From IMG/VR virus record IMGVR_UViG_3300042429_000662, positions 1 to 28,334 of that record: a DNA stretch of 28,334 nt; one strand, 5' to 3'. How positions within the stretch are numbered: the first letter of the stretch is position 1; each line of letters begins with the position of its first letter. The position numbers and the translations under genes are program-made. Positions 2,487 to 27,629 of this stretch are shown in pieces. The DNA is from a virus. The notes below the pieces were generated by a model that searched no databases, had not been told where the DNA came from, and saw only the letters and a program-made list of their open reading frames with translations.

Positions 2487-3695
2487 GTGGGCAAATCGGG
2501 AAACCCTGCCAAACAAACCAAACCCCTAAACGGTGCAGTAGCCGTTTGGTCTAATTCACCAGGTATGCCAACCGGATACGGCGAACAGGCAAAACTGTTA
2601 ATTGACTTGTTGAAACGTGACGGGGCTAAAGTGGCAGCCGTTTCAAACTATGGTTTGGAAGGTGTAGTTGATGAATACCGTTCACCTTATGGCCCTGTTC
2701 CACATTATCCGCGTGGGTTAGACACTTACAGTAATGACGTTGTAGGGATGCACTATGCACATTTTATGTCGCAACATCCTGACCTTCAAAAGCTCATAAT
2801 CACCCTTTATGATGTTTGGATTTTGAAAGGTAAAGGTTGGGATGATAAACGGGTTGCGTCTTGGATGCCCCTTGATCACGTGACCCTGCCACCAGCAGTT
2901 GCGGATTGGGCTAGACGGGATAACGTCACCCCTGTTGCTATGGCGAAACACGGTGTGCGTCAGTTGAACGCTGCTGGTATTGAATGTGAATACGTGCCAC
3001 ATTCGATTGACACGAAAGTTATGAAACCCACTGACACGATTGGTGGGCGTGACGGGCGTGACTATCTGGGTGCAAATGACCGGTTTGTTGTGGGTATGGT
3101 TGCTGCTAATAAAGCTTCAGGTTTGGTTCACCGAAAAGCGTTTAGTGAAAACTTGCAAGCGTTCAGTGTGTTCCACCAGAAACACCCTGACACGTTGTTG
3201 TATTTGCACACCGACTTTATTGGTGGTGCAGGTGGTTGGAATCTGCTGAAACTGTTGACCGCTTATGGTATCCCGAAAGAAGCAGTGACGTTCCCTGCGT
3301 TGAATGATTACCGTTACGGTGTCAGCCGTGCAGACCTGGCTGGTTTTTATACCGCTATGGATGTTCTTCTTGCCGTGTCTTACGGTGAAGGGTTTGGTGT
3401 TCCCACTGTTGAAGCTCAAGCGTGTGGCACACCCGTTATCGGTTCTAGTTGGGCAGCAACCCCTGATCTGCTTTCTGATGATTGCTGGATGGTTGACGGC
3501 ACTATGGCGTGGGATGCAGGTCAAGATGCGTTTTGGGTGACACCTAACGTGTCTTCGATTGTGTCTGCGTTGGAACTGGCTTATGAGCGTGGGCGTGGCC
3601 GTTCGCAAGCGTCTATTGATTTTGCTAAACAGTTTGACACTGAAACGGTTTGGCAAGAACACTGGTTGCCGTTGCTGTCAAAGTTGTTGGCGTGA
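2487..3695 (+). CDS. Glycosyltransferase, GT-B fold, GT4-like
   Basis: A 402-residue protein. The N-terminal domain opens with a Rossmann strand and SPGMPTGYGEQA, resembling the nucleotide-sugar enzyme pattern in which a Gly-rich loop follows the first strand. The C-terminal domain has the GT4 signature YGEGFGVPTVEAQACGTPVI, with the E-x7-E pair at residues 301 and 309, which contacts the donor sugar nucleotide. It would move a sugar from an NDP-sugar to an unknown acceptor. It starts at GTG after GAAAGGAAAC and is followed by a GT2 enzyme and a nucleotidyltransferase in overlapping frames. Sitting between capsid and connector genes, the block may glycosylate virion proteins (inference). Confidence 0.85.
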   Translation: MGKSGNPAKQTKPLNGAVAVWSNSPGMPTGYGEQAKLLIDLLKRDGAKVAAVSNYGLEGVVDEYRSPYGPVPHYPRGLDTYSNDVVGMHYAHFMSQHPDLQKLIITLYDVWILKGKGWDDKRVASWMPLDHVTLPPAVADWARRDNVTPVAMAKHGVRQLNAAGIECEYVPHSIDTKVMKPTDTIGGRDGRDYLGANDRFVVGMVAANKASGLVHRKAFSENLQAFSVFHQKHPDTLLYLHTDFIGGAGGWNLLKLLTAYGIPKEAVTFPALNDYRYGVSRADLAGFYTAMDVLLAVSYGEGFGVPTVEAQACGTPVIGSSWAATPDLLSDDCWMVDGTMAWDAGQDAFWVTPNVSSIVSALELAYERGRGRSQASIDFAKQFDTETVWQEHWLPLLSKLLA

Positions 3696-4339
3696 TTCCG
3701 GTTCTAGGTTTTGCGGTAGTCAATCAGTTTGCTAAAGCAGACCGTCTGTTGGCTTCCATTGATTACCCTGTTGAACATTTGATGATTGTTGATAACAGTG
3801 GCACTGCTTCGTGGAATCCTGTCAAACCGGATTGGGTGGCGAACCTATGGGTTGTGCGTGTGCCGTTCGGGTTAGGTTTGGTTGGGGCGTGGAATCTGAT
3901 TGTGAAAGCAAACCCTTACGCCCCGTATTGGTTGCTGATTAATGATGATGCGTGGTTTGAACCTGGTGCGTTGAAACAAATCGCAGACGGTGTTGATTCG
4001 TCAACGCTGAACTTTATTGGCACAAACCCTGAATGGTCGGGTATAGCGTTAGGTGAAAAAGTTGTTGAAACTGTTGGCCTTTATGATGAACGTTTTTACC
4101 CTTTGTATTTTGATGATAACGATTATGAGCGGCGTATTACTGACGCTGGTTTTGTTATCAACCGTATCGGGGCTGTGGTTCATCACGAAAACAGCAGCAC
4201 ACTTCATTCTGGGTTTCAGTCGAAGAACGTGGTGAGCTTTAGAAACAACCAACTGCTTTATGAAATGAAGGTTGCCGTTGATGACTATTCTGAAGGTAAC
4301 TGGTCTTTAGCGATTAGAAGGGCGAACCGGTGGGATTGA
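3692..4339 (+). CDS. Glycosyltransferase family 2 (GT-A fold)
   Basis: I choose the GTG at 3692, which overlaps the previous stop as GTGA and gives 215 residues beginning with a typical GT2 first strand. An in-frame ATG at 3650 would add an unlikely N-terminal tail. The chain has VDNSG (about residues 32-36), an N-D-D motif (residues 84-86) in the place of the metal-binding DxD, and YFDDNDYERRI further on. That last motif is the acidic D/ED-Y pattern usual in rhamnosyl- or galactofuranosyltransferase-like GT2 enzymes. It probably works with the GT4 enzyme upstream on the same glycan. Donor and acceptor cannot be read from the sequence. Confidence 0.85.
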   Translation: MIPVLGFAVVNQFAKADRLLASIDYPVEHLMIVDNSGTASWNPVKPDWVANLWVVRVPFGLGLVGAWNLIVKANPYAPYWLLINDDAWFEPGALKQIADGVDSSTLNFIGTNPEWSGIALGEKVVETVGLYDERFYPLYFDDNDYERRITDAGFVINRIGAVVHHENSSTLHSGFQSKNVVSFRNNQLLYEMKVAVDDYSEGNWSLAIRRANRWD

Positions 4340-4752
4340 AAGTTTATACGGGTGGCACGTTTGATTTGTTCCACGCTGGTCACGTCAAGTTTTTGGAACG
4401 TTGCCGTCAGTTCGGTAAAGTCACGGTGGCGTTGAACACTGACGAATTCATTGAAGCGTATAAAGGTAAACCGCCCGTGATGTCTTATGAAGAACGGGCT
4501 GAAGTGTTGCTGGCTTGCCGTTTCGTTCACGATGTTGTGCCGAACTTTGACGGTGCTGATTCACGCACCGCAATTGACTGGGTTGAACCTGACTTGATTG
4601 TTATTGGGTCTGACTGGGCGGTTCGTGAATATCACGCACAAATGGGTTTTGATCAGGCGTGGCTTGATGAACGGGGTATTGGTTTGTGTTATTTGCCTTA
4701 CACGAAGGGTGTTAGTTCGACTGACATTAAAGCCCGAATCAGTAGGCGGTAA
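4330..4752 (+). CDS. Cytidylyltransferase-like nucleotidyltransferase (TagD type)
   Basis: A 140-residue protein with all core motifs of the small nucleotidyltransferase fold: YTGGTFDLFHAGH (HxGH at residues 15-18, binds the nucleotide phosphates), an ALNTDEF strand, an IDWVEPDLIVIGSDW region and GVSSTDIK near the end (equivalent of the ISTT motif). Glycerol-3-phosphate cytidylyltransferase and relatives have this size. It would couple a phosphorylated alcohol or sugar to CMP or AMP. GTG at 4330 is favoured by AGAAGG nine bases upstream; TTG at 4336, overlapping the previous stop, is the alternative. It closes the glycan block. Confidence 0.87.
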   Translation: MGLKVYTGGTFDLFHAGHVKFLERCRQFGKVTVALNTDEFIEAYKGKPPVMSYEERAEVLLACRFVHDVVPNFDGADSRTAIDWVEPDLIVIGSDWAVREYHAQMGFDQAWLDERGIGLCYLPYTKGVSSTDIKARISRR

Positions 4753-4783
4753 ACTAGAAGCGTAGGCTTTTAGAAGGTGTTTG

Positions 4784-5404
4784 ATGGCGATTACTAACGG
4801 GTATGCAACCCTGACCGAAATAAAAACAAGTTTGCGAATCAGTGACACCATTGATGATGCACAACTGGAAATGGCTGTTGAAGCAGCCAGCCGTTTAATT
4901 GACGGTTATGCGCAACGATATTTTTACCCGTCAGGCACGGCTACGCGTGTGTTTGCGTCAGATAACACTTACCAGGTTGTTCTTGATGACTTGTTGACTG
5001 TGACTGAAGTCAAACTTTCTAGCCTTGATAACGGCACGTATGACACAACTCTTGTGCCAAACGATTACCAACTGTATCCGTTGAACAACGTTGTGGGCGG
5101 TCTGACCGGTTGGCCATTTACTGAAATGGTTTTGGCTGGCAACTATCTATCAGCCAACTATGGGTTCACTACTGGTTCGGGTAGGGCTAACGTTCAAATT
5201 ACGGGAACGTGGGGCTGGTCTGCTGTGCCGATAGCCGTCAAACAGGCAACTATCATTCAAGCTTCACGCATTTTTAAACGTGCAGATTCACCGTTGGGTG
5301 TTGCAGGGTTTGGGGATATGGGTGTGATGCGTGTCAGTTCTAGCCTTGACCCTGACGTTCGACAGTTGATTGATCCTTACCGCCTTATGAGAAACTTTCA
5401 ATAA
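4784..5404 (+). CDS. Head-tail connector protein (gp6-like)
   Basis: A 206-residue protein. ATG at 4784 is well placed after AGAAGG; the in-frame TTG at 4781 is less likely. The N-terminus (YATLTEIKTSLRISDTIDDAQLEMAVEAASRLIDGYAQRYF) is the helical pattern of HK97 gp6-like or gp15-like head-tail connectors, which form a ring under the portal. The rest is a beta-rich region and a C-terminal helix ending in DPDVRQLIDPYR, which is typical of actinophage versions. The stop overlaps the next start. This is the first gene after the glycan insertion that returns to the usual morphogenesis order. Confidence 0.8.
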   Translation: MAITNGYATLTEIKTSLRISDTIDDAQLEMAVEAASRLIDGYAQRYFYPSGTATRVFASDNTYQVVLDDLLTVTEVKLSSLDNGTYDTTLVPNDYQLYPLNNVVGGLTGWPFTEMVLAGNYLSANYGFTTGSGRANVQITGTWGWSAVPIAVKQATIIQASRIFKRADSPLGVAGFGDMGVMRVSSSLDPDVRQLIDPYRLMRNFQ

Positions 5405-16961: not shown

Positions 16962-17415
16962 AGAAAAAGAAGAACCCGTTTACTGCCATAACCGTTTAAC
17001 TATGGTTGCGTGTTCGCGGTGTGGTGCTGACGCGTTTAGTGCTGAAGCGTGGATTAAACGGCAGTTGCGTGGTTCGTCAAAACTTTGTGCCGATTGTGAA
17101 CGCACACCGGTTCTAGTTATCAAACCTAAGAACCAGGTTGAAGGTATGTGCCGTGTTTGGCACGGTGACTATGACTGGGATGATCACCCGTTAGATTCTG
17201 ACGGGCAACGGTTCACAGGCGATGTGGCGTTGTGTGGTCATAAGGATTGCATAAACGCTAACCACCGCCCTGAAATGGTGCTGAAACGCCCACCACGCCC
17301 TTCTGAAGTAGTTTCTATGGATGCCCGTAAACGCAAAAAGATAGCAAAACGCAAAAAAACCACTTTTAGTCTTGAACTGTGGTTGGCTGTTGCTGAAGGG
17401 TCAGGCCAATTGTGA
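16945..17415 (+). CDS. Zinc-finger / HNH-like protein, paralog of 21121-21393
   Basis: GTG at 16945 (156 residues), overlapping the methyltransferase end. N-terminal zinc ribbon: CSRCGADAF and LCADC. Then CRVWHGDYDWDDHP and a LCGHKDCINANHRPEM finger, whose C-x4-C-x-N-x2-H form resembles the end of HNH_3-type nuclease domains. A Lys/Arg-rich tail follows. The 21121-21393 protein shares the W-x-G-D-x-D-x2-D-x-P and C-x-H-x-D-C-x-N-x-N-H elements. Probable DNA-binding protein, nuclease activity uncertain. It joins two methyltransferase genes. Confidence 0.65.
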   Translation: MSKLFEEKEEPVYCHNRLTMVACSRCGADAFSAEAWIKRQLRGSSKLCADCERTPVLVIKPKNQVEGMCRVWHGDYDWDDHPLDSDGQRFTGDVALCGHKDCINANHRPEMVLKRPPRPSEVVSMDARKRKKIAKRKKTTFSLELWLAVAEGSGQL

Positions 17416-17996
17416 AGCTTCGAGTAGGGTCACTGTTTAGTGGCTATGGGGGTCTTGATCTTGCCGTGTCTGCTGTGTTGGATGCTGAAACGGTTTGGTT
17501 TTGTGAATGGGATGATGCCCCGTCTAAAGTTTTGGCGGCACGGTTTCCAGGTGTTCCCAATTTTCGTGACGTTTCGAAAGTTGATTGGGCGAATGTTCCG
17601 CCTGTTGACATTTTGACTGGTGGTTTTCCGTGTCAGGATGTTTCGCTTGCTGGCAAACGTGCCGGTTTGATGGATGGCACACGTTCAGGTTTATGGTCTG
17701 AATTTTTTAAAGCAATTACTATTTTGAAACCTAGATTGGTGGTTATTGAAAATGTTCGTGGATTACTCTCAGCTTCAGCAGATAGCGGTGTTGGAACAAC
17801 AGACGGGTTTGTGGTTGAAAACGCAGGTGACCCCACTATTCGGGCCATTGGTGCTGTTTTCTCAGACCTTTCCACCATCGGGTATTCTGCACGATGGCAA
17901 ACTGTTCGTGCCGCTGACGCAGGGGCAGCCCACAACAGGGCTAGGGTTTTCATCGTTGCATTCCCAGAATCAGGAACTTCTTCGAACACCGATTAG
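17412..17996 (+). CDS. C5-cytosine DNA methyltransferase, N-terminal part (motifs I-VIII)
   Basis: A 194-residue frame with motif I (LFSGYGGLDLA, residues 8-18), motif IV GGFPCQ (catalytic C74), motif VI IENV (about 112-115) and motif VIII (NRARVFIVAF, about 175). It stops at TAG 17994-17996, soon after motif VIII. The target-recognition region and motifs IX-X are in the next frame (+1) from about 17956. Start GTG overlaps the upstream gene as GTGA-style coupling. Either the gene is broken, or it is sequenced with an indel, or the enzyme is made by frameshift or as two chains. Confidence 0.85.
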   Translation: MKLRVGSLFSGYGGLDLAVSAVLDAETVWFCEWDDAPSKVLAARFPGVPNFRDVSKVDWANVPPVDILTGGFPCQDVSLAGKRAGLMDGTRSGLWSEFFKAITILKPRLVVIENVRGLLSASADSGVGTTDGFVVENAGDPTIRAIGAVFSDLSTIGYSARWQTVRAADAGAAHNRARVFIVAFPESGTSSNTD

Positions 17997-19200
17997 TTCT
18001 GAAGCTGAAGGTGGGGCTATTCATCCTGAAGATGCTAAAGCCGGTGGCAATAACCTGAAACTGGGTTGGCAGATACTGGGGCATTTTGGTCACATTGAAC
18101 CTAAGTTGCCAACAATTAAAGCCCGTGATTCTGTTGCTGAAGGTTATGAAGCAGGGTTGCGCCGTCAATCGCCCCAGATTGGAACGATTGTTAAGGGCAT
18201 TGTTGACCGTGATCCACGCGCAACTTCTGAACCTAAGTTGCCTACGCCTGTTGTGAATGATATGGGTGCAGGTAAAACTGTTGAATGGTGGGATGAATGG
18301 TGTGCCGCTACAAAAAAGAAGCACAACAACAGTAACGGTCACGGCCCTAGCCTGAATGTTGAAATGTTGCGTTTGTTGCCCACCCCTAACACGATGGATG
18401 GGTTACCGGCTAGAACGCCTGAAAAGATTGCGGAAAGTAAAGAACGCACACCTGCTGGTTATTCGAATCTTTGTGAATCGGTTGTAAATGATCTGTTTCC
18501 TACGCCGGTTGCACAGGAAGGCATTAAAGCACCGTCACAACAAACGTCTGAAGTCAAAGGCAAGAACGGTCAGGTTTGGCTGTCTAACGTCGCTAAAGAC
18601 ATTGAAGCGATGAATGAACCCGTTGACTTGATTGGCACACCGCGAACCAGCAGTGCAAACGGGTCAACACCGAAACAGGTAGCGAACGGGGCAACAAAGT
18701 CGCGCATTGAAGACCAGGTTCTAACTACTTCGTGGGGCAAGTTCGAACCAGCAATTCAACGTTGGGAACAAGTCATTGACCGCCCAGCACCAGCACCAAC
18801 CAAACCTGACGGTAAAGACGGTCAACACCGTTTGTCTAGCGAATTCACTGAATGGTTGATGGGCTTACCGGAAGGATGGGTTACTGATCCTGAATTGGGT
18901 TTGACTAGGAATGAGCAGTTGAAGCTTTGTGGGAATGGTGTTGTGCCACAACAGGCAGCATTGGCCCTAAGAATGATGCTTTCTGACTTTATTCCAGAAA
19001 AAAATGATGATGCCGTGATGCCGACTTTGACCACAAATGGAACGGGTAGGCATTCTGCTGGCTATGATTCGTTAGGCACTTTACAAATGCTTGAAGTTGC
19101 TAAGGGTGTTTTGCCGAAGGAATACACTTCGTGGGAACAGGTGAACGCTAAGATTCCTGCTGAATGGCGTGATGGTAATGCTGGTAAGGAAAACAAATGA
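17956..19200 (+). CDS. C5-cytosine methyltransferase, C-terminal part (recognition region, motifs IX-X)
   Basis: This frame is +1 to the N-terminal part and open from before 17746, but only the stretch after about 17956 reads like protein. It has LLRTPISSEAEGGAIHPED, several (L)PTP repeats, then FTEWLMGLPEGWV and LKLCGNGVVPQQAALAL, the motif IX/X end of C5 methyltransferases. TTG at 17956 is the first nominal start in this stretch and has no good ribosome site, so independent translation is doubtful. About 414 residues. The final 60 residues carry one more PTL segment beyond motif X. Confidence 0.75.
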   Translation: MHSQNQELLRTPISSEAEGGAIHPEDAKAGGNNLKLGWQILGHFGHIEPKLPTIKARDSVAEGYEAGLRRQSPQIGTIVKGIVDRDPRATSEPKLPTPVVNDMGAGKTVEWWDEWCAATKKKHNNSNGHGPSLNVEMLRLLPTPNTMDGLPARTPEKIAESKERTPAGYSNLCESVVNDLFPTPVAQEGIKAPSQQTSEVKGKNGQVWLSNVAKDIEAMNEPVDLIGTPRTSSANGSTPKQVANGATKSRIEDQVLTTSWGKFEPAIQRWEQVIDRPAPAPTKPDGKDGQHRLSSEFTEWLMGLPEGWVTDPELGLTRNEQLKLCGNGVVPQQAALALRMMLSDFIPEKNDDAVMPTLTTNGTGRHSAGYDSLGTLQMLEVAKGVLPKEYTSWEQVNAKIPAEWRDGNAGKENK

Positions 19201-19844
19201 GCGTTGAAGCTATCTCGCTAGTGCTTAATCATTCGAAAGCAACAGGTCGGGCAAAACTGGTTCTTATCGGTATCGCAAACCATTTAGGCGATCAGGGTGC
19301 GTGGCCGTCAATCGCCACCTTAGCCCGTTATGCAAATGTTGACACCAGGTCGGTGCAACGTGACATTAAAAACTTGGTGGAACTGGGTGAACTGTCTGTT
19401 GAAAAGAACGCCGCACCGGTTGGTGGGCAATACAAAACAAACCTTTACTGGATAACAATCGAACCGTCAGGGGTGACAGATTGGGTCAGCAGGGGTGACA
19501 GTTCTGGCAGTCAGGGGTGTCAGGTTTTGCAAACAGGGGTGACACCTGCTGTCGCACAAAACATAATTAACCATAAAGAACCTTTAAGTAAGAAAAAAAG
19601 TTTCAACGCGGATTGGAAACCGTCAGCCGAATTGACTAAATGGGCTAACCAGGTGAACCCTGATTTGGATGTGACTGACGCTGTTGCCCAAATGATTGAT
19701 TATCTTCTTGCCACTGGTAAAGCTACAGCAGTGAAAGACATTGACGCACGATTTCGCACGTGGGTTCGAAACAGTGTAAAGTTTGGAAAACCGCAGAAAA
19801 AGGAAGTGACGGAATTTGTTCCGTTTATTGGTAAAAGATTGTGA
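19197..19844 (+). CDS. Replication initiator protein with winged-helix domain (lambda O-like role)
   Basis: 215 residues; ATG overlaps the previous stop as ATGA. Residues about 15-75 form a helix-turn-helix (KLVLIGIANHLGDQGAWPSIATLARYANVDTRSVQRDIKNLVELG split by turns), of the type found in phage replication initiators. The middle is a Gly/Ser/Thr linker coded by the four iterons at 19466-19553. The C-terminal part (FNADWKPSAELTKWANQ to FRTWVRNSVKFG) resembles DnaT/DnaD-like helicase-loading domains. It would bind the iterons and load the DnaB-type helicase coded next, whose start overlaps it. Confidence 0.8.
   Translation: MSVEAISLVLNHSKATGRAKLVLIGIANHLGDQGAWPSIATLARYANVDTRSVQRDIKNLVELGELSVEKNAAPVGGQYKTNLYWITIEPSGVTDWVSRGDSSGSQGCQVLQTGVTPAVAQNIINHKEPLSKKKSFNADWKPSAELTKWANQVNPDLDVTDAVAQMIDYLLATGKATAVKDIDARFRTWVRNSVKFGKPQKKEVTEFVPFIGKRL
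19466..19553 (+). repeat. Four 22-bp iterons: probable replication origin
   Basis: The 11-bp core CAGGGGTGACA occurs at 19468, 19490, 19512 (CAGGGGTGTCA) and 19534, with an exact 22-bp period. Because 22 is not a multiple of three, the repeats are translated in three different frames (SGVTD, SRGDS, SQGCQ, TGVTP), so conservation is of DNA, not peptide. They lie inside the initiator gene, as the lambda origin does in gene O. Confidence 0.85.
19554..19606. other. AT-rich segment next to the iterons: probable DNA unwinding element
   Basis: Directly after the fourth iteron the sequence becomes A/T-dominated (ACATAATTAACCATAAAGAA and on, with an A7 run at about 19594). Iteron origins usually have such a segment on one side for strand opening. 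The assignment depends on the iterons. Confidence 0.6.
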
Positions 19845-21103
19845 ATGTTGAAAAAGCAGTGATTGGTGCGGTGCTGCTAGACAGTGGCCGTTGCCTTGAT
19901 GAATTGACGCTTAGACCGGCTGACTTTGATGATCCCCGTCACGTTCAGATTTGGGGCAAGTTTCTTGATAATCAGTCACAGGGTAAACCTTGTGACACGG
20001 TTTCGATGATTGCCGAATTGCCTAAACTGGCTGAATTGTTTTATGACTGCACTTCGGCTTGCCCGTCTGTTACGTCTGCCCCGTATTATGCCCGTCAGGT
20101 TTATTTAGCTTCAATGCGTAGGCAAGTGAAGTCTGCTGGTTATGCGTTGGTGGATTTGACTGACACTGATGATCCTGAACAGTTGCTGGAAATCGCTTAT
20201 AAGCGTTTGGATGATGTTGCAGAAAATGAGCAAACTGAAGATGTTGTGTTTATGTCTGAACTGTTTGGTGACTACTATCCGACTATTGGTGAACGTCAGT
20301 TTCACGCCACTTCGGGCATTGCTTCGTTGGATGAATTGTTGAACGGGTTTAGACCTGGTGGCCTTTACATTATTGGGGCTAGACCGGCAACGGGTAAGAC
20401 TGTGGTTGGTTTGCAGGTCGCGTTTGGTTTGGCACGTAACGCTAACAGTTTGCCTGATGGTGAAAATGCTGGTGCGGTCACTTTTCATTCGCTAGAAATG
20501 TCTAAAAGGGAACTTTTGAACCGTTTGACTGCTCAAGTGTTCAACATTTCGTTGACCAGGTTGGAACGCGGTGACGTGAACGCCGCTGAAAAGAAAATGA
20601 TTCAATCCCAGATTCACGAAATTGGTCGAATGTTGGCGATTAATGACCGTTCGAATCAGTCGGTTGCGTCAATTCGCCGTTATGCCCGTTCGGTGGTTCG
20701 GCGTGGTATCCCGTTGAAGGGGATTGTTGTTGACTATCTGGGCCTGATTAGTGATGTTCAGTCTTCTGGGCGTTCACGTTATGAAGCTATGACTTTGGTT
20801 AGTGGGCAGATGAAGGCGTTGGCTAAAGATTTGAACGTGCCGGTTGTGTGTTTGGCACAGTTGAACCGTAACGTTGAAGGGCGTAAAGATTCTGCACCCG
20901 TGATGGCTGACCTGCGTGATTCGGGTTCGATTGAACAGGATGCTGACGTTGTAATGCTGTTGCACCGTAAAGCGTCAGTGACTGCTGCTGATCCAAACCT
21001 GTTGAACGTGTTGCAGGTCATTGTGGCTAAGAACCGTCACGGTCAAACTGGTGCAATGGAATACCTGTTTGAAGGTGCGTTTAGCCGTATCAGGGAAGTG
21101 TGA
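19841..21103 (+). CDS. Replicative DNA helicase, DnaB-like
   Basis: 420 residues from GTG 19841 (GTGA overlap). N-terminal domain begins VEKAVIGAVLLD, the DnaB start pattern. The RecA-like domain has Walker A GARPATGKT (179-187), an S-L-E-M-S motif after motif 1a, Walker B-like IVVDYLGLI, and VCLAQLNRNVEGRKDSAPVMADLRDSGSIEQDAD with the conserved Q and arginine-finger region. The end (KNRHGQTG-x5-F) is also family-typical. It would unwind the fork during phage replication after loading by the initiator upstream. Length is a little below the 450-470 residues of bacterial DnaB. Confidence 0.93.
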   Translation: MNVEKAVIGAVLLDSGRCLDELTLRPADFDDPRHVQIWGKFLDNQSQGKPCDTVSMIAELPKLAELFYDCTSACPSVTSAPYYARQVYLASMRRQVKSAGYALVDLTDTDDPEQLLEIAYKRLDDVAENEQTEDVVFMSELFGDYYPTIGERQFHATSGIASLDELLNGFRPGGLYIIGARPATGKTVVGLQVAFGLARNANSLPDGENAGAVTFHSLEMSKRELLNRLTAQVFNISLTRLERGDVNAAEKKMIQSQIHEIGRMLAINDRSNQSVASIRRYARSVVRRGIPLKGIVVDYLGLISDVQSSGRSRYEAMTLVSGQMKALAKDLNVPVVCLAQLNRNVEGRKDSAPVMADLRDSGSIEQDADVVMLLHRKASVTAADPNLLNVLQVIVAKNRHGQTGAMEYLFEGAFSRIREV

Positions 21104-22877: not shown

Positions 22878-23083
22878 CTGCAACTGATTATGATGCTGAA
22901 ATGTTGCAACTTGACCGTTGGCGTGAAGCCGGTAAAAGTGTTGGGCGGCAGTTGGGCGTGTTGCAGGAACGTAGACGTGTTGTTGCGTTGCTGGAAGCGA
23001 TGATTGCTGATGGCGATTATGTGAAGTCGAATGGTTTGAAGTCTTTGGAAAAAGCAATTTTGGTTGTGGAAGGAACGCTGTGA
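22874..23083 (+). CDS. Hypothetical helical protein
   Basis: ATG 22874 (ATGA overlap) gives 69 residues: DYDAEMLQLDRWREAGKSVG, then RRRVVALLEAMIADGDY, and a C-terminal LEKAILVVEGTL. Entirely helical with charged faces. Located directly before the second nucleotidyltransferase, whose start overlaps its stop. No family recognised. Confidence 0.6.
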   Translation: MTATDYDAEMLQLDRWREAGKSVGRQLGVLQERRRVVALLEAMIADGDYVKSNGLKSLEKAILVVEGTL

Positions 23084-23628
23084 AAAAGTTTGTTTTAGTG
23101 TCGGGCGGTTTTGATCCGTTGCATCAGGGGCATTTGGCTTACCTTGAAGCTGCTTACCGGTTGGGTGATGGCCTGATTGTTGGGTTGAACAGTGACGAAT
23201 GGTTGGCACGGAAGAAGGGCAAGGGGTTGTTGCCGTTTGCTGACCGTCAGGCGGTTCTTGACGCGTTATGGATGGTTGATGAAGTTTGGGCGTTTGATGA
23301 TTCTGACGGGTCTGCGTCTGACTTTATTCGTAAGGTCATTGATCAGTTTCCTGATTGCCGTTTTGTGTTTGCCAATGGCGGTGACCGTGACGGTTCGAAC
23401 ATTCCTGAAATGTCGGTTGATGATTACCGTCTAGATTTTGCTTTCAGTGTTGGCGGTAGTGACAAGATCAACAGTTCATCAAACATTCTGGGCGATTATG
23501 TTGCGTATCACCGTGAACAGTTTTGCCAGGTTTTGCAGGATGAAGTTGACGGTTGGGTTCGTCAGCCTTCGTTCAGTTACCCTAAAGCTTTGACTGCCCT
23601 AATCGAAAAAATAAAGGAAAACAAATGA
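23080..23628 (+). CDS. Cytidylyltransferase-like nucleotidyltransferase
   Basis: 182 residues from GTG (GTGA overlap). Fold motifs: VSGGFDPLHQGHLAYLE with HxGH at 15-18, a VGLNSDEWL strand with a K-K-G-K loop, ADRQAVLDALWMVDEVWAF, and SSSNILGDY (ISTT-motif equivalent). This is closest in pattern to the RfaE-C / glycerol-phosphate or heptose nucleotidyltransferase group. It differs from the head-module enzyme at 4330-4752 in the loop and C-terminus. It would activate a phosphorylated sugar or alcohol with CTP or ATP. Substrate unknown; relation to the mannose genes at the right end is possible. Confidence 0.85.
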   Translation: MKKFVLVSGGFDPLHQGHLAYLEAAYRLGDGLIVGLNSDEWLARKKGKGLLPFADRQAVLDALWMVDEVWAFDDSDGSASDFIRKVIDQFPDCRFVFANGGDRDGSNIPEMSVDDYRLDFAFSVGGSDKINSSSNILGDYVAYHREQFCQVLQDEVDGWVRQPSFSYPKALTALIEKIKENK

Positions 23629-27133: not shown

Positions 27134-27303
27134 TGCCCGTCTATGACTACAAATGCCCCGACTGTGGGAAGACCCGAACCCAAACAATAAGTCTGAAAGA
27201 CGTTGACACTTTCAAAGCTGTGTGTGCGTGTGGTGTGGTTATGGTTCGTGTGTATGGTGTAGCAGCCGTCACGTTCAAGGGAACGGGATGGGGCAAGGAT
27301 TGA
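27133..27303 (+). CDS. FmdB-family zinc ribbon protein
   Basis: 56 residues; ATG overlaps the methyltransferase stop (TAATG). MPVYDYKCPDCG is the FmdB start signature, followed by a second pair C-A-C-G and the ending TFKGTGWGKD, like the F-x-G-x-G-x-x-K-D end of the family. These proteins are short regulators or metal-binding proteins of unclear role. The second pair is C-x-C rather than C-x2-C. It is the first of the C/A-rich right-end genes and overlaps the cupin gene by 16 bp. Confidence 0.8.
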   Translation: MPVYDYKCPDCGKTRTQTISLKDVDTFKAVCACGVVMVRVYGVAAVTFKGTGWGKD

Positions 27304-27629
27304 TTGATTACCGTTTATGGGGAACATTCCAGGTTCTAGGCGAAAACCCCGTGTGTGTAAAACTACTAACCGTCAACCCACACAGTCGCTTATCGTTACA
27401 AACACACGAACACCGCGCAGAAGTTTGGTATCCGCTAACTGACGGGTTACAGGCCATAATCGGTGCAAGGCACATAGACCTGAAAGCTTTGACGCGTTAC
27501 CGTATCGGTGAAGGTGTTGAACACAGACTGATCAACCCGACAAACAAACCGTTACAGGTTATTGAACTGATGTATGGCGTATATGATGAAGCCGACATTT
27601 TTAGGATTCAAGATGACTACGGGCGGTAA
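27288..27629 (+). CDS. Type II mannose-6-phosphate isomerase cupin
   Basis: ATG at 27288, 113 residues (TTG at 27300 is the alternative start). It matches the C-terminal cupin of ManC/AlgA-type proteins: RLWGTFQVL, VKLLTVNPHSRLSLQTHEHRAEVWYPL (metal-binding H-x-H-R-x-E), a G-V-E-H-R-L-I-N-P histidine, LQVIELMYGVYDEADIFRIQDDYGR. It interconverts fructose-6-phosphate and mannose-6-phosphate, the first step to GDP-mannose. The nucleotidyltransferase part of the bifunctional protein is absent. It overlaps the phosphomannomutase gene, the next step. Confidence 0.87.
   Translation: MGQGLIDYRLWGTFQVLGENPVCVKLLTVNPHSRLSLQTHEHRAEVWYPLTDGLQAIIGARHIDLKALTRYRIGEGVEHRLINPTNKPLQVIELMYGVYDEADIFRIQDDYGR

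Follow-up and report, generated by a model that had tools for sequence, protein, structure and literature searches.

Four repeats at an exact 22-bp period lie inside the replication initiator gene of a bacterial virus, and we believe, with a probability of about 0.9, that they are the iterons of a replication origin carried within the gene of its own initiator. The stretch analysed, hereafter the window, comprises 28,334 bases of a virus record that is classed as linear and is probably a fragment. Three components of an origin of the intragenic-iteron class were present: repeats in the initiator's own gene, conservation at the DNA level, and an adjacent A+T-rich element seen in both sequence and stability. 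The initial annotation had already read iterons within the initiator gene as an origin, and this reading was supported by the conservation of the repeats and by their covariation with the recognition helix of the protein. Origins of actinobacterial phages seem to be mostly unmapped. A study of extrachromosomal mycobacterial prophages reported no repeat motifs near the repA genes, and could only suggest an origin upstream of or inside repA (PMC7157519). A candidate origin can now be read from the initiator gene in more than 100 phages and prophages, including cultured Arthrobacter phages. The literature searched, which did not include subscription papers and preprints, contained no account of these repeats.

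The core CAGGGGTGACA occurs in three identical copies, and the remaining copy, the third, is GGGGTGTCA / CAGGGGTGTCA, one base off, with TGT for TGA (Table 1). The repeats are also given as GGGGTGACA. The positions, the period and the single change in the third copy had all been reported in the initial annotation and were confirmed here. No other four-copy array (11-bp core, at most one mismatch, period of 15-30) was found in the window, and none of 200 Markov-simulated windows held any such array, even with a 9-bp core; the array exceeds the chance expectation. Because the cores occupy codon frames 1, 2, 0 and 1, the claim that the repeats are read in all three frames is correct. Each unit contains one conserved half-site and the units are arranged head-to-tail, while an inverted partner 6 bp further on, the arm spacing of relatives, is absent from the window units.

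Table 1. Features of the candidate origin and its genes in the window
Feature	Position	Strand	Remarks
Replication initiator gene, 215 aa, HTH_36 winged helix and C-terminal helical domain	19197..19844	+	Pfam HTH_36 3e-10; PHROG 'replication initiation O-like' 8e-24
Winged-helix DNA-binding domain (residues 3-86; recognition helix 50-62)	19203..19454	+	AlphaFold2 secondary structure; residues 52, 54 and 55 covary with repeat bases in relatives
Predicted disordered linker, residues 91-133	19467..19595	+	pLDDT <50 (AlphaFold2)
Iteron 1, CAGGGGTGACA	19468..19478	+	
Iteron 2, CAGGGGTGACA	19490..19500	+	
Iteron 3, CAGGGGTGTCA	19512..19522	+	A-to-T where an in-frame TGA would arise; same variant in L001-L003
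Iteron 4, CAGGGGTGACA	19534..19544	+	
A+T-rich candidate DNA-unwinding element	19555..19614	.	72% A+T; 0.27% of window 60-mers less stable
C-terminal helical domain, residues 144-195	19626..19781	+	AlphaFold2; unrelated domain instead in relatives keeping HTH and iterons
DnaB-type replicative helicase gene, overlaps initiator stop	19841..21103	+	PF03796 3e-69; PHROG_19

The product of the gene that holds the repeats belongs to the HTH_36 / PHROG_8540 phage replication initiators, as both the profile match and the HTH domain were present. Its AlphaFold2 model is of moderate confidence overall (mean pLDDT 65, pTM 0.41), and the 10-residue pLDDT means of the winged helix span 51 to 85. The DNA coding for the predicted linker holds the iterons and most of the A+T-rich stretch. 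A PDB sequence search with the initiator gave no significant match, and a PDB fold search gave weak winged-helix matches only (E above 0.02), among them 4pt7 ('initiator') and 5kbj ('Rep-DNA complex'), which we take to be RepA_N proteins. The helicase gene that had been noted as the next gene is indeed there and is of the DnaB type. Upstream of the initiator, a C5-cytosine methyltransferase is encoded on the plus strand in two overlapping ORFs, 17412-17996 (N-terminal part of PF00145) and 17746-19200 (C-terminal part). Since the methyltransferase of the distant relative L005 is split likewise (3534-4088 and 3862-5004), this looks like a conserved split gene or a frameshift and not an error. 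Elsewhere on the plus strand there were a glycosyltransferase gene (2487-3695) and a cytidylyltransferase-like gene (4330-4752) amid head and tail genes, a second cytidylyltransferase-like gene (23080-23628) and, near the window end, a gene with a mannose-6-phosphate isomerase C-terminal (cupin) domain (27222-27629). Rfam and tRNA scans of the whole window found nothing.

Conservation of the repeats was assessed in 80 loci obtained by scanning IMG/VR with the initiator protein, using peptide search patterns that contained no repeat sequence. The repeats were kept in all 80. The initial annotation had named relatives with the peptide but no repeat as the case against its reading, and the result was the opposite. 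Within the window clade (L001-L003) the spacing is 22/22/22 with core frames 1, 2, 0, 1, and in most other loci it is 21/22/23 (frames 1, 1, 2, 1) or 22/23 (frames 1, 2, 1). The spacing thus slips by 1 bp, so that the reading frames shift while the DNA core stays. Variant copies were found in L009 (two copies as GGGGGGACA) and L011 (one copy as GGAGTGACA). Among 35 non-redundant genes, the winged-helix domain differed at fourfold sites in shared codon boxes in 60% of comparisons, and 34 of 3570 (about 1%) differed at the third positions of GVT codons within the cores. The core codons for Gly, Val, Thr, Arg and Asp are nearly always GGG/GGT, GTG, ACA, AGG and GAC, and the cores use the strings GGG-GTG-ACA or AGG-GGT-GAC almost without exception, although all synonyms are used elsewhere. 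The earlier suggestion that selection acts on the DNA is therefore supported, as the relatives hold the repeats while the peptide frame shifts.

One frame of the core reads CAG-GGG-TGA and so hides a stop codon. The window clade retains the copy that falls in this frame, as TGT, and that base is the sole departure of the third copy. In the relatives with 22/23 or 21/22/23 spacing, the slips leave no copy in the stop frame. We discarded the observation that TGA sites never occur in the stop frame, because any open frame forces it; the absence of TGA is trivial, and the informative point is that a stop-frame copy is kept with a single changed base. In this detail, selection at the DNA level plainly takes precedence over the protein code.

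About 100 further genes came from distant actinobacterial prophages and phages and from two more IMG/VR scans. The comparison covered about 150 related viruses. Most of the distant genes carry two to five repeats in the same linker, of different sequence and usually in the form of 18-bp dyads (arms of 6 bp) at spacings of 19, 23 or 24 bp. Covariation was measured in 63 non-redundant genes (cut-off of 90% identity of the N-terminal domain) that did not include the window clade; the motif finder and the set were both made in this analysis, and 14 loci lacking clean dyads had been put on a hand-made exclusion list ahead of the test. Base 5 of the half-site carried most information on residues 55 and 52 (z 11.5 and 8.0, respectively), and base 3 on residue 54 (z 10.2). 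Under a phylogeny-aware null, for which the tree was built with the recognition helix masked, none of 500 simulated base histories reached the observed value for any of the three residues. The fitted rate for base 5 was the grid maximum, which leaves almost no phylogenetic signal. G3 accompanied R54 in 8/8 genes and other residues in 0/55; T5 occurred with N52-K55 in 15/16, and A5 with S/T52-R55 in 19/22. When each gene in turn was left out, residues 52, 54 and 55 predicted base 5 correctly in 42 of the 63 genes, compared to 26 for the majority base and 36 for the best among 200 triplets of columns drawn at random; at bases 3, 4 and 6 such prediction did not exceed the majority baseline in the same genes.

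The window clade has S52-[QK]54-R55 (S52-Q54-R55 in the window), which fits the rules for GGTGAC (T3-A5-C6), and its repeats are all GGTGAC, except for the TGT copies in the stop frame and the variants in L009 and L011. Covariation in the relatives indirectly supports the idea that the winged helix reads the repeats. We think it somewhat probable that actinobacterial phages share a large and undescribed family of HTH_36 initiators whose origins are intragenic and are read by the protein itself, following a simple protein-to-DNA code. Within this one family, two architectures (18-bp dyads, and half-sites placed head-to-tail at 22 bp) would have evolved, and the hidden stop would shape both spacing and sequence. 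In the code proposed as part of this family reading, and held with the same modest preference, residue 54 would read base 3 and residues 52 and 55 would read base 5; residue 55 would probably also read base 6. If true, origins, and the phages able to cross-replicate, could be predicted from the protein sequence. The covariation gives a recognition code open to direct test. Internal repeats of other sequence in an HTH initiator gene were also found in the cultured Bifidobacterium phage PMBT6, Curtobacterium phage Penoan and Gordonia phage Jollymon (L106, L105 and L210). A search of 795 genomes of two host families (400 and 395) for more copies gave few extra loci. The gene of Salmonella phage SI8, a distant HTH relative, has no repeats, so the arrangement is not universal.

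The annotation knew of no description of an iteron origin inside the initiator gene for a WhiB-carrying phage of this kind. WhiB-carrying lake phages are not the sole carriers of the arrangement, because the cultured Arthrobacter phages Kuleana, Galaxy and Coral share the intragenic array, with the repeats unannotated in their records. In these three and in Abidatro and Kepler, as in the window, the array lies at the same place in the homologous gene, which is named an HTH 'replication initiation protein'. In these phages it consists of GGGGTG cores, four or five in number, that run head-to-tail at intervals of mostly 22 bp, and the copy in the stop frame is changed. The arrays of Galaxy and Abidatro have 22/22/22 spacing and are made of GGGGTGAAC, except that precisely the copy in the stop frame reads GGGGTGCAC (TGC), a solution that arose independently of the TGT of the window clade. 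However, the recognition helix and the repeat ends differ from those of the window: SVQN helices occur with GGTGAA/GGTGCA and SVQR helices with GGTGAC/GGTGCC, so that N55 goes with the ends in A and R55 with the ends in C. The downstream gene in these phages is a methyltransferase, whereas it is DnaB in the window.

The A+T-rich stretch after the repeats, noted from the outset, is real, and in 35/35 non-redundant relatives the DNA past the last core fell below the gene mean in stability. Exact DnaA boxes (TTATCCACA) were found at the repeats in 16 of the 63 distant relatives, about 99 times their density elsewhere in the same loci. Against the origin reading, there were no DnaA boxes within one mismatch near the repeats of the window clade. 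In L087-L100 and in viral loci such as L128, L129, L163 and L168, there is often a perfect DnaA box that stops 2 bp short of the first iteron dyad (offset -11), which suggests that actinobacterial phages of soil have a variant of this origin assisted by DnaA. The GC skew also counts against an origin, as it is positive almost throughout, with one slightly negative 1-kb segment near 5.5 kb and no sign change near 19.5 kb, but this check is uninformative in a 28-kb fragment. In many relatives the winged helix and iterons are retained with a different C-terminal domain, and some lack a DnaB gene, which shows that the iterons travel with the winged helix. The absence of a downstream DnaB gene from some relatives with the same iterons is a further point against the reading, and it means that helicase recruitment may differ among them. 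An ORF of 121-148 aa follows the initiator in relatives without DnaB (L012:5626-5991, L018:917-1363), and it weakly matches the helicase-loader profile PHROG_2289 (E 0.01). Such relatives may load the host helicase instead.

Covariation suggests that the protein reads the repeats but does not show what binding does, and the repeats might be operators for the repression or timing of the operon by its own HTH protein. Transcription is likewise influenced by O binding in lambda. We consider this alternative unlikely, because the sites are some 270 bp into the gene, promoter signals in their vicinity do not exceed chance, an unstable A+T-rich stretch comes after them, relatives have clusters of DnaA boxes at the repeats, and the genes that come next encode helicases or putative loaders. 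It is still less probable that the array is some other phage DNA site, such as a packaging site (pac), a centromere-like parS or a recombination hot spot, which came by chance to lie in an initiator gene. Tandem repeats are typical of such sites too, and no result favours this idea. However, a terminase or parA/parB gene was not recognised adjoining the array, the repeats covary with the recognition helix of the protein whose gene contains them, and they stay with the winged helix when the C-terminal domain and the downstream gene change. That GVT- or RGD-like codons are kept for the peptide, with the DNA repeats as a by-product, would agree with cores inside an open frame and with several copies encoding GVT, but it is already refuted by the frame shifts and the synonymous constraint, since the copies encode different peptides in different frames (GVT, RGDS, QGCQ), synonymous sites are frozen, the spacing slips by 1 bp between relatives, and the region is predicted to be disordered.

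Taking the repeats as the iterons of an origin, we propose that the initiator, through its N-terminal winged helix, binds one GGTGAC half-site per 22-bp unit, which would align four protomers along a single DNA face at intervals of two helical turns. The resulting nucleoprotein complex would strain and open the A+T-rich stretch, the C-terminal domain would contact the DnaB helicase of the phage, the product of the next gene, and bring it in, and the origin would fire at the array. The steps of opening and helicase recruitment are modelled on lambda, SPP1 and pSK41. Because the repeats double as codons of a disordered linker, their protein meaning is nearly free, and their DNA sequence is held, even through a change of the stop-making base or, in relatives, a 1-bp slip in spacing.

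The term lambda-O-like, used in the initial annotation, holds for the anatomy and for the presumed mechanism but not for detectable homology: the window protein matches only HTH_36, lambda O itself matches Phage_rep_O (PF04492), and hhalign between the two gave a probability of 0.1%. The PHROG label 'O-like' is a functional name. In lambda ori/O, as in the window, the iterons come right after the DNA-binding domain in mixed frames and are followed by an A+T-rich stretch. The four annotated lambda iterons lie at codons 117-145, just past the Phage_rep_O domain (22-115), in frames 0, 2, 2, 1 with spacings of 20/24/23. They are 18-bp dyads, as in the distant relatives of the window protein, whereas the window repeats are head-to-tail half-sites at 22 bp and form no dyads. 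The next gene in lambda is P, which acts on the helicase (PMC6022878), a P-type loader in contrast to the DnaB helicase of the window. The layout of SPP1 oriL/gp38 is similar, in that gp38 binds direct repeats inside gene 38, where an A+T-rich element is also found, and the phage encodes a loader and a DnaB-type helicase (PMC6316719). SPP1 is, however, a Bacillus phage with a second origin, oriR, and none was found in the 28-kb window fragment. In pSK41 the N-terminal winged helix of Rep binds four Rep boxes in the middle of rep, the part coded by the origin is a linker, and the C-terminal domain contacts the replication machinery (PMC5703833). The window shares the winged helix, the four intragenic boxes and the origin-coded linker, although pSK41 is a Firmicutes plasmid and its Rep belongs to a Pfam family different from that of the window initiator. 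By analogy with these systems, the best explanation is that the window array works like lambda ori/O, SPP1 oriL/gp38 and pSK41 Rep.
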